Positions 54,701 to 64,000 of a stretch of 64,000 nt of DNA are shown here, piece after piece; position 1 is the first letter of the stretch; each line of letters opens with the position of its first letter. The stretch comes from Diphasiastrum complanatum. Lineage: Eukaryota > Streptophyta > Lycopodiopsida > Lycopodiales > Lycopodiaceae. The DNA is taken from positions 76,712,471-76,776,470 of the forward strand of contig CM055095.1 in the NCBI GenBank assembly GCA_029204225.1. The letters are read 5' to 3'. Below the pieces are notes generated by a model that saw only the letters and a program-made list of their open reading frames with translations, was not told where the DNA came from and ran no database searches. The position numbers were made by a program, and so were the translations under genes.

Positions 54701-54872
54701 CTCTTGCATCTCCTTGCATGATGAGATTGTTGATTCATTTTTTTTTTCATCAGTTGACTTTTGGTAGAGAGATAGTTTCGTTAGATAAGTCCGCATGTGG
54801 ACATTGCTCCTATCTTGTATGTACTGTACTTTGTCTTTTGTGCCTACATGCACTGGATAGACATTAATACAA
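54701..54872 (+). mobile_element. LINE copy L-A: 3' UTR only
   Basis: About 170 bp matching the 3' UTR of L-B (CTCTTGCATCTCCTTGCATG, AGAGAGATAGTTTC) and ending with the hairpin (54840-54853), AGACATTAATACA and a (CT)n tail. It is a heavily 5'-truncated insertion into the copia scrap. Confidence 0.88.
54840..54853 (+). ncRNA. 3'-terminal hairpin of LINE L-A
   Basis: GTGCCT-AC-ATGCAC. Four outer pairs are intact and the inner two are weakened. Confidence 0.68.
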
Positions 54873-54937
54873 TCTCTCTCTCTCTCTCTCTCTCTCTCTC
54901 TCTCTCTCTCTCTCTCTCTCTCTCTCTCTCTCTCTCT
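54873..54937 (+). repeat. (CT)n between LINE L-A tail and L-B head
   Basis: A pure CT run of about 65 bp. L-A ends at AATACAAT just before it and L-B endonuclease sequence begins just after it. Confidence 0.94.
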
Positions 54938-57900
54938 GTGTACTCAGTATTTCGCCCGTTTATGCGGGGGAAGACTTCACGAGGATTGGGGGGAGTGGCT
55001 TGTTTATACAAGAATGCTTGCACCTCATTCTTCAAGATGGTTAAACAGGATTCTTTTGCTCGCTTCATCTGGCTTCAGTTTTTTGGACAGCCATCGGGAC
55101 TTCCCCAGGATGTTTTCTTGGCAGTTTGCTACATTGCTGCTCAAACTTCTATTCTTGCAGATTTTGGTGGTGACCCATTCCAGGTTCTCTCAGATAACAT
55201 AGCCAGTTTCTCTCTACAGGCGTATATTCTATTAGCAGGGGATTTTAATGCCCGCAAGTCCACCAGACAGTCTGAGTTTCATGCTGACGAGGATACAGAG
55301 ACACCAGTGACTTCTTTTAGTGCGCAGCTACTTAAGCTGACTGAGGCACACTCGCTGACCATCTTGAATGGTCTTTCGCAGTGGCCATCCTCCTCTTTAT
55401 TTACTTGTCACCCACATGGGAGTGGACACAATGTGGTTGACTTGATCCCACACATATCTGACTTTAGTATCCTACCACCTACCTTATCAGACCAGTCCAG
55501 GCTGTCCCTTTCCATTGGTCATGTCAACCCTAACCCCAATATCGCGCGACCACTCGTACCCGCATTAAGTTTTTGACCCACGGCATTTCTGCTTATTCTT
55601 CTTCATTGAGATCTCTCCTTCGTGACTTCCCCTTTTTATCCTCAGCTGAGCACCAGACCACATTCCTTTCTCAATCTTTACTACATGCTGCTTCTTCTTC
55701 GTATCCCATAAGGCTTAACTCCACTCATAGACGTGTGCATAATAGATGGTATAATACAAAGTGCTCTCTTATGCATAAGCAGGTGGTGCATGCCATGTTT
55801 CATCTCCCACATCACTTGCTCAAAAAGAAAAAATATACCGCACACTTGTGAGGAAAAAAAAGAAGGCATACTTGCAAAAAAAAAGGTCAAAAACTGATAG
55901 ATACTCTTGTTTCATCTTCTTCATCTTATTTTTGGAAGACCTTCTCTAAGAAGTCTTTTACGATTGCTCCTATTCCTATCAAGTCTTGGGTGGAGTATGC
56001 TACACGCCTCTATACTACTGATTCTTCCCCTATCACTCTCTCATCGAGACCTACTGATTTTACAATGTTCACCCCTTCTTTGATTGAAGATGCTATCAAA
56101 CGTGCCCAAAATCACAAAGCTGAAGATATTGACTCACTTAGTACTGATTTTCTCAAACCTGTGGCTCATATAGTTTCACATCTTCAATCAAGCTGTTATG
56201 TTTGGTTTCCCTACTGCCTGGTGCACTAACCTACTACACCCTATACTTAAAGCCGGTGATCCAATGAATGTGGAAAATTACTGTACTATTATGAATAGTC
56301 ATATCATGGCTAAGCTTTTTGGCTCGATCCTGCAGTCTATTGTTAGCTCAAAAGCAGAAGTGGAGGGATTACATGCTCTTGGACAGGCAGGTTCAAGACT
56401 GGTTATTCTACTACGGATCAGATTTTTATTTTGAGATGTATCATTGAGGAGGCTAAGCATCGGAAGCAGCGGATTTATTGTTGCTTTGTAGATTTCCGCA
56501 AAGCTTTTGACTCTGTACCCAGACATCTTCTGCTTCAGCGCCTGGTCTCACTTGGCTTTTCATAGGAGGTTATTGCTTCTATTACCAACAATTGGAGATA
56601 GTTGCCTCTTACACTTACCTCGGAGTTCTCTTTTCTAGGCCTCTGCTTACTTTTCGGCCGGCATCCACAGCTCGCCTGCTTAAGGGACACACGGCCCTTG
56701 TGCAGATGGAGAGACTTTGTACTGCCCTTTATGTTCATGACCCCACTACACGTTGTTTGCTCTTTTCTATTATTGTCTCTCCGGTGGCTATGTATTCAGC
56801 GGAGGCTTGGTGTCTTGGGCTCTCTACGGGTACATGGAGAGACATCACTTGGTTACAGATTCTCATGCTTGGCCGGATGATCCGTGCAAAGGCCTCGGTT
56901 CCTCATGACATTATACTAGCAGAGTTTGCACCTTCACCTATGGTTGTTATACTTCATCTCGGTCTATTGCTAGTTTGGGGATGTCTCTGAGTTTCTTGGC
57001 AGATGGGGGATATCTATATCAGCTCTCCCTAGTGGGACTCATACTTATATTTGGCGTCAGCTTTATCGCAGTTATATCTAGACAGTATGGTCACAGCTGG
57101 ATCCAAAGAGAGCCAAGATGCATTTTAACGGCACTCACCTCCTACAGTTAGATGATATGGGGCTACCTATCCTACCGTTGTATTTCTCACAGACATTATC
57201 ATATGGTCTTCAATACCGTATTGGGCAGCTTCGTGTCTCCTCATATCAGCTCGCTATCAAGACCGGTCAGTATACTACTACACCCAAACCACAACGGTTT
57301 TGCCAGTTATGCTCGATGCAGGAGGTAGAGGATCACATTTCATTTTCAGGTGCCCTACTTATTATGAGATCCGAGGCCGTTATTATTGTCTCTACAGAGA
57401 CACTCCCCTCTCCCTTGGCTCTTTCTTGGCATATGCACACTTTCGATGTGTCGGACTCCTATTGAGAGAGATGTTTACGTTACGAGCATCTCTTCTACCT
57501 TCGGAGGCAGATAATGTTTACAGTCAGACTCTCATCACACATTTCTTACAGAAGAGGGATAGAGAGGAGGTTTCAGAGGATGAGCTTAATATCCCGACAC
57601 GACAAAAGGCTATGAAGACTCAGCGACCATCTTCCAACCCGAGACATGCAGTCCGTTCATCACAGTAAGCCAGAGCCTCACGACGGCCTTACCGAGTCGT
57701 TCGTCAGCCTCCAGCACGCACTTCACAGCCTATCACTCTCTTCTTCAGATCAGCCACTCAGTGACTCAGTTTTTCTGGTGTTTCTTTAGATGAGATCTTA
57801 GGTGTTTGCCTCAGCAGAGCAAGTGGCTAAGCTCTTGCCTTTGTACCTCAGCAGAGCGATTGGTTAAGCTCTTGCATCTCCTTGCATGATGTGAGATTGT

Positions 57901-62912: not shown

Positions 62913-63070
62913 ATCTCTCTCTCTCTCTCTCTCTCTCTCTCTCTCTCTCTCTCTCTCTCTCTCTTCTCTCTCTCTCTCTCTCTCTCTCTCTCTCTCTCTC
63001 TCTCTCTCTCTCTCTCTCTCTCTCTCTCTCTCTCTCTCTCTCTCTCTCTCTCTCTCTCTCTCTCTCTCTC
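62913..63070 (+). repeat. Long (CT)n between LINE L-D tail and L-E head
   Basis: About 158 bp of CT with one slip (TTCT near 62963). L-E RT sequence begins at GCGAAGCTATATGG immediately after it. Confidence 0.95.
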
Positions 63071-64000
63071 GCGAAGCTATATGGCACAATCCTCAGTCTG
63101 CAGTTAGCTCCGAGGCAGAGTCCAGGAGATTACATGCTTTGGGTCAGGTAGGGTTCCGCGCACATTATTCCACTACAGATCACATATTCACACTTCGAGC
63201 CCTCATTGAGGAAGCTAGACACAGGAGAGAAAAGGTTTACTGATGTTTTGTGGACTTCAGGAAAGCCTTTGATTCTGTCCCACGCTCCTTACTCATCCAG
63301 AGACTCCGAGACCTGGGTTTCTCTACAGACATTATCCTAGCTGTCATGGCTCTCTATGAGAGGGTACTGGGTTGCTTCCGTCATGGTAGTGGCATATCTG
63401 AGCAAATCTGGAGCACTATTGGGGTTAAGCAGGGATGCTCTCTCTCACCAGTTCTCTTTGGATTATATATTGACGAGCTAGAGCAGGTCATCTCTCAGTG
63501 CGGTGGGGACGGTTGTCGGCTTGGGGACATTCTGATTGCCATCCTTCTCTATGAGGATGATGTGGTACTAGTCTCCCGTACCAGAGAGGGATTACAGAGA
63601 CAATTGGACTATTAACACACCTTTTGCACTAAGTGGGGTCTAGGAGTGAATCTCTCGAAGACCAGAGTTATGGTCTTCAATACCTCTCGGGCCTTCATGC
63701 AGCGCCAGGAGCTTACCTTTGACGGACAGCCCCTAGAGGTGGTCTCTTCATACACTTACCAGGGTGTGCTCTTCTCTGGTCCTACCTTCAGTATGAGACA
63801 GGCGGCTACTTCTAGACTTGGAAAGGGCCACTCTTCCCTAGTCTAGCTGGAGAGACTCTGCTTCTTCACGCCTATAGACCACCATGTTAGCTCGCATGAT
63901 TCGAGCGAAGCCCTCGGTTCCACATGAGATCATCCTTGCGGTGTTTGCCACCCCCCCTATTCAGATTGAGGCAGCCTTCCAGCTCATCACGTACATCCAG
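63071..64000 (+). mobile_element. LINE copy L-E, 5' truncated, runs off the window
   Basis: Starts in RT (KLYGTIL-like), then [55 protein letters not shown] and ILLYEDDVVLV, where the RT block YADD reads YEDD. Stops at 63241 and 63614 are not C-to-T changes; the one at 63844 is TAG for CAG. The remainder lies beyond 64000. Confidence 0.9.

Follow-up and report, generated by a model that had tools for sequence, protein, structure and literature searches.

A LINE family with a preference for (CT)n microsatellites in Diphasiastrum complanatum, and LINE tails as likely landing sites for later copies

How do retrotransposon copies with different 5' truncations come to lie head to tail, each one starting in the simple repeat that closes the copy before it? 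The question is raised by a 64,000 nt stretch of the 1.74-Gb Diphasiastrum complanatum genome (C4:76712471-76776470, hereafter the window), in which five pieces of long interspersed nuclear elements (LINEs), L-A to L-E, follow one another on the plus strand between positions 54701 and 64000 (Table 1). The initial annotation of this stretch described such an array and proposed that each tail had served as the target of the next insertion. Direct reading, TRF and blast confirmed the arrangement, with the extent of L-E (which continues beyond the window to ~64935) taken from tblastn on the window and fetched flank. L-B, L-C, L-D and L-E each begin directly at the simple repeat closing the preceding piece, these being, in order, (CT)32 (54874-54937), (TTC)10, (CT)15 (60585-60614) and a further (CT)n. 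The four downstream copies are truncated at different points of the second open-reading frame (ORF2), as had been claimed, with homology first detected at approximately residues 68, 335, 387 and 560. The claim of five copies holds for five pieces, but L-A is merely a fragment of a 3' untranslated region (UTR), 80% identical to the 3' end of L-B, to which its similarity begins at 54701, and the sequence before it is copia-like by eye and not CT.

The array is of mixed age. L-C is 99.8% identical to a young copy elsewhere in the genome (L027) over 58069-60059 and 100% identical over 60422-60578, whilst L-B, L-D and L-E are diverged and their reading frames are broken; sequence comparison thereby identifies L-C as a late insertion into the L-B tail, placed before a copy (L-D) older than itself, and implies serial insertion, not one event. 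Between the two matching parts of L-C, 362 bp of foreign or unrelated DNA (60060-60421) stand in place of 645 bp of the element, a replacement possibly due to template switching or gap repair. L-B carries an internal deletion at ~56577-56583, where homology skips from residue 305 to residue 428 of L-C.

Table 1 Features of the two LINE arrays and a related empty site, in window coordinates.
Feature	Position	Strand	Description
L-A	54701..54937	+	LINE 3' UTR fragment; 3' hairpin, AGACATTAATACAA, (CT)32 tail; presumed landing site of L-B
L-B	54938..58070	+	Old, 5'-truncated, begins in ORF2 endonuclease domain; tail (TTC)10 at 58041-58070
L-C	58069..60614	+	Young, 5'-truncated; tail (TAATTC)n(CT)15
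L-D	60615..63069	+	Older, 5'-truncated, 86-90% identical to M3; tail (CT)n at 62915-63069
L-E	63070..64000	+	Old, 5'-truncated, begins in reverse transcriptase region directly after (CT)n
M1 tail	37029..37098	-	(CT)35; presumed landing site of M2
M2	34930..37028	-	5' end directly at (CT)35, ORF1-like start; broken copy
(CT)25	34791..34840	-	5' flank of M3
M3	30307..34790	-	Long copy, degraded ORF1 and ORF2; tail (CT)32 at 30370-30307
M4	28791..30306	-	ORF1 homologue only (ORF 29996-29046), begins directly at M3 tail
Paralogous empty site of L063 (C18)	48290..48480	+	Uninterrupted repeat; flanks 88% and 76% identical

By their sequence features the elements are LINEs (non-LTR retrotransposons, LTR denoting long terminal repeat) of the type with an apurinic endonuclease (APE): they combine a reverse transcriptase (RT), an APE-type endonuclease, 5' truncation and a variable 3' tail. 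The first two were recognised in the 1183 amino acid ORF2 by matches to RVT_1 (E 1.6e-33) and Exo_endo_phos (E 2.5e-14), and a C-x2-C-x8-H-x4-C motif was read by eye at its C-terminus. The L027 copy is ~5.0 kb long, with a GC-rich 5' UTR holding short repeats and internal CT tracts, followed by an ORF1 of ~300 amino acids that resembles coiled-coil families only weakly; two ORF1s scanned more widely against Pfam gave nothing beyond weak matches, and in an NCBIfam scan nothing reached the curated cut-off. A whole-genome protein search, in which 67 of 32295 first-look candidates were scored, placed the young family at no fewer than 67 sites with 99-100% protein identity, L-C included, and most of the listed copies possess an open frame of 1183 codons. 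Amongst 120 listed of 947 matches, the named protein relatives of L-C were from two land plants, the fern Adiantum nelumboides (44-52% identity) and the yew Taxus chinensis (36%), and from Chlorella vulgaris (37-38%). The common 3' end consists of a hairpin, the motif AGAC(A/G)TTAATA and a repeat tail. In 22 different 3' ends (19 collected and three read separately), assessed by five measures against 500 shuffles, the two-helix hairpin had 87.3% of its cells paired, compared with 33-57% when slid by 1-3 columns, and three of its ten pairs showed two-sided changes (14 cells); two of the five measures lay above all 500 shuffles. A smaller set of 15 ends (seven of the 19 left out, six of them with weak folds) gave 92.7% paired, and we prefer the lower figure from the 22 ends.

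Young copies throughout the genome share the 5' flank seen in the array. From the 66 listed besides L-C we chose 41 without use of their flanks, one of which was dropped for a too-short contig, leaving a sample of 40, with 25 further listed copies outside it; 5' stretches were fetched in sets of 3, 20 and 17, some of them later extended. The 5' junction was seen in 30 of the 40. Of these, 26 copies, both long and truncated ones, begin at a CT tract and three at ordinary sequence, with one ambiguous case. At 25 of the 26 CT junctions the tract was an alternating CT stretch of 19 nt or longer, replaced in L059 by a 62-nt pyrimidine run, whilst in L054 the element is met by 14 nt of CT, then 15 nt of other sequence and then a long CT tract; alternating CT of at least 43 nt was present at 20 of the 30 junctions. 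Judged by eye, another LINE's 3' end lies before the CT in 17 of 27 cases (L027, L049, L052, L054, L057-L061, L065, L067, L081, L084, L088, L093, L094 and L096, with some 45 nt between the LINE end and the CT in L049) and ordinary sequence in 10, the ambiguous L063 included; nine of the 26 CT junctions are thus preceded by ordinary sequence.

That such a shared flank would not arise by chance, as the initial annotation held, is borne out by 20 random 10-kb stretches (~12 kb of them N), in which a tract of this kind ended 0-5 nt before 126 of 375632 positions, and 1773 positions (0.5%) lay inside one or up to 60 nt beyond it. Against this 0.5% background, 26 of 30 has a binomial tail of ~9e-57, for copies that are not fully independent: L050, L085, L087 and L089 lie in one host flank and, counted once, reduce the figure to 23 of 27. 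Orientation is one-sided. The CT was on the sense strand at all 26 CT junctions, and 37 sense-oriented 5' stretches held 24 CT tracts but not one GA tract reaching 10 nt, although the two orientations are almost equally frequent genome-wide. Truncated copies also occur in CT tracts singly: L013 (3824-5243) has (CT)17 on its 5' side, (CT)24 on its 3' side and ordinary sequence outside, and in L066/L078 the truncated end, near residue 95 of ORF2, directly adjoins CT. In addition, seven young copies (L050, L085, L087, L089, L030, L031 and L033) were found in a CT tract of one multicopy host sequence. Because the first four, with one shared host flank, begin at three distinct points within the 5' UTR repeats, they suggest repeated insertions into one microsatellite. 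A different LINE, RT-truncated at its 5' end by eye (L100, C3:46749210-46749340), likewise starts directly at a long (CT)n, in this case with ordinary sequence upstream (L090).

These results support the proposal that copies insert into (CT)n/(TTC)n and that tails become targets of later ones, through the number and single orientation of the young junctions and through some isolated copies in CT tracts with no LINE just upstream. On comparison of their sequences we consider that the arrays probably arose by target-primed insertion into microsatellites of pyrimidines, for which LINE tails would provide landing sites of the family's own making. The available part of PMC3747384 describes LINE insertion, as known from R2, as a nick followed by priming and reverse transcription. 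In the present family the endonuclease would nick the GA strand of (CT)n, which fits the one-strand bias, and the freed (GA)n end would base-pair with the RNA's (UC)n end and prime the complementary DNA (cDNA). The cDNA end would then be joined to the CT tract on the upstream side, in many cases where the element itself contains CT. Joining by short homology is suggested by 2-5 nt of CT common to element and target at the junctions of the truncated copies L-C, L061 and L066, and by several copies that begin exactly at the element's internal CT tract. Each copy would leave CT on its 3' side and usually retain CT on its 5' side, and the new landing sites would allow arrays to grow head to tail.

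Several observations weigh against this reading, or at least against a strict form of it. Ordinary sequence lies 5' of L026, L028 and L083, three of the 30 resolved young junctions; L063, counted as ambiguous, has only 11 nt of CT, which the element's internal tract could supply; and in ten of the 40 copies the junction was left unresolved (L051, L053, L055, L068, L086, L090, L091, L092, L095 and L097). In an older mixed set of 25 copies, 14 show no CT tract on the 5' side. Amongst 20 young copies the CT part of the tail can be as short as 2 nt or as long as 204 nt, and a long downstream CT is therefore not required. When the empty site of the host repeat of L050, L085, L087 and L089 was sought by pattern, with the 5' and 3' flanks of L050/L030 assumed to be joined by a CT tract of limited length, there were no matches. 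For the hairpin, three of the five measures were matched by shuffles (per cent paired in 17 of 500, two-sided pairs in 166 and pair types in 416). CT targeting is strong but incomplete, a preference and not a rule, because of the three ordinary junctions, the insertion of L063 at CTCTT and the 14 older copies without a tract. Most resolved young copies lie in the same microsatellite and in a fixed orientation, as expected of a microsatellite-targeting LINE, but without the strict specificity of some such families. The initial annotation had regarded ordinary 5' flanks in most copies as fatal to target specificity, an outcome that is false for the resolved young copies, although most of the older set show no tract.

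The older set was drawn from the window, 50 kb of flank and the same 20 random stretches; it omits L023, the 5' end of which is off the stretch, and some interrupted copies were counted once. CT was found on the 5' side in 11 of the 25, five of these being copies that start in ORF1 and needed an upstream look of up to 600 nt, for which the background is 2.9%. Without L-B to L-E the count is seven of 21, which is above background and also above ten times the 60-nt rate. By eye, LINE-like sequence continues upstream of three of the negatives (45889, 82675 and 82807), and their true 5' end was perhaps not reached; loss of tracts with age would be a guess. Three LINE copies in the random stretches have their 5' end inside, of which L013 abuts CT, unlike L012 and L022.

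The 3' side offers further detail. The 5' CT is often long where the 3' CT is short, an impression and not a test, and the impression is of insertion near the 3' edge of the tract. At L057 and L037 (C9:18820379-18822352), ~84 nt of the same LINE 3' end flank the young insertion on both sides, representing either a long target duplication or two related tails. The paralogous empty site of L063 reads AAAAATG-CTCTT-AATCAGAGC, compared with AAAATG / element / AATCAGAGC in the filled site. In this single case the empty site is a bare CTCTT, and the off-microsatellite insertion therefore still fell on CTCTT.

The same case lends some support to the alternative that survives best, as do the three young junctions in ordinary sequence: short CTCT-like nick motifs, or open pyrimidine-rich DNA, would be preferred in general with no dedicated site-specificity, and microsatellites would be struck merely for the many motif copies in them. 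However, 1888 of the 2145 CTCT words in the random sample lie outside tracts, yet 26 of 30 junctions are at tracts, and two-thirds of all resolved junctions have the long alternating CT described above, making this explanation rather unlikely. We consider it improbable that the arrays arose by template jumping, in which a single reverse transcription event crosses from one RNA to the tail of another and produces an array in one step. Such jumping would yield head-to-tail truncated copies joined at their tails, and in eight of 23 young copies the fetched 3' flank does contain a further LINE piece (L027, L034, L035 and L047 by protein match, L032, L037, L045 and L048 by 3'-end signature, with L039 a ninth by eye); but the near-identity of L-C to young copies amongst diverged, broken neighbours and the isolated truncated copies L013 and L066 argue against it, and for the plus-strand array a one-step origin was rejected on identity and age. 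Similarly doubtful is recombination after insertion between the CT tracts of unrelated LINE copies, which would create both arrays and 5' CT flanks. CT tracts are also present in the 5' UTR, and the start of several copies, at CGCCGC(C/T)CTGCTGG, immediately follows the internal tract; against this, copies truncated in ORF2 also start at CT (L-B, L-D, L-E, L066 and L013), and CT starts occur in young near-identical copies on many contigs. A 5' CT tract carried by the element itself was rejected as a general account: it could account for L063 and partly for L054, yet leaves the ORF2-truncated copies unexplained. Simple repeats are difficult to assemble, but mis-joining of contigs at such repeats is very improbable given 26 of 30 CT junctions on many contigs, in one orientation and in nine cases with ordinary sequence before the tract. 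Lastly, one tandem segmental duplication, which would give head-to-tail order and which the initial annotation had named as a possible refutation, is itself refuted, because long alignments among L-B, L-C, L-D and L-E share 64-72% identity (up to 80% in short 3'-end stretches), with different truncation points and different tails.

A second head-to-tail array, on the minus strand of the window, runs from the M1 tail through M2, (CT)25 and M3 to M4. M2 contains non-LINE sequence between ~35544 and 35000, and in the ~90 nt before the (CT)25 of M3 no LINE similarity was detected, the M2 pieces stopping at 34930. M4 closes with a LINE 3' end, including the hairpin, and a (TTC)7(CT)19 tail; its ORF1 shares 32% identity over 216 amino acids with that of L027 (E 1e-24), and M4 is probably a non-autonomous partner. 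Elsewhere, a 44-nt piece that resembles the RT region by eye lies between (CT)32 and (CT)14 at 14045-14180, and outside the window (-11704 to -10251 in window numbering, L005/L004) a truncated copy has CT on both sides and a further LINE begins at its tail. Ty3/gypsy elements, one with a chromodomain, occupy 16444-27642; the segments 16444-16749 and 27336-27642 both match one L027 stretch at 95-96% and are, on this similarity, probably LTRs.

Microsatellite-specific LINEs are already known as a kind. In animals, the Tx1-clade LINEs Kibi and Koshi target (TC)n/(TTC)n, a pyrimidine microsatellite target like that of the present family. Tx1 and R1 are target-specific clades with an APE-type endonuclease according to the available part of PMC4640811, and the Tx1 clade has this enzyme in common with the present family, although it occurs in other clades also and is not diagnostic. 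The present family differs in that its preference is incomplete, and kinship with the L1/Tx1 group, which includes the animal precedent raised in the initial annotation, is not supported: in a PDB comparison R2 (87.1 bits) scores slightly above human L1 (79.1 bits) as a match to the RT, these being scores and not a tree. Fish Togen also has a microsatellite target, (TG)n, but the accessible text of PMC4640811 places it, as NeSL-related, in the restriction-like endonuclease group, in contrast to the APE-type enzyme here. In the surveyed papers, target-specific LINEs are described from animals and from protists such as oomycetes. Amongst green-plant LINEs, to which the present family also belongs, the portion of PMC3747384 at hand describes some plant L1, RTE and algal RandI/Dualen elements with a 3' stem-loop and repeat tail; its Table 3, on flowering plants and green algae, gives the tails (A)n, (TTG)n, (TTGATG)n, (ATT)n, (CTATTT)n, (CA)n and others but no (CT)n, and that portion has no mention of fern, moss or Selaginella. 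A limited literature search, with most subscription journals outside its coverage, found no case of a microsatellite-targeting LINE in plants. Evenly balanced, in our judgement, is the broader proposal that a land-plant LINE lineage outside Tx1, recently active, evolved its own (CT)n targeting, its tails seeding sites in a growing niche shared by the ORF1-only M4. This would show a transposon enlarging its own safe harbour and spreading microsatellites, and the many near-identical, mostly open copies offer a natural series of insertions in which a LINE's choice of repeat could be studied. The Zepp element of Chlorella forms nested arrays, with copies inserted into earlier copies as in Diphasiastrum. 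Its tail, however, is given as (A)n (PMC3747384, available part), in contrast to the pyrimidine tails described here.

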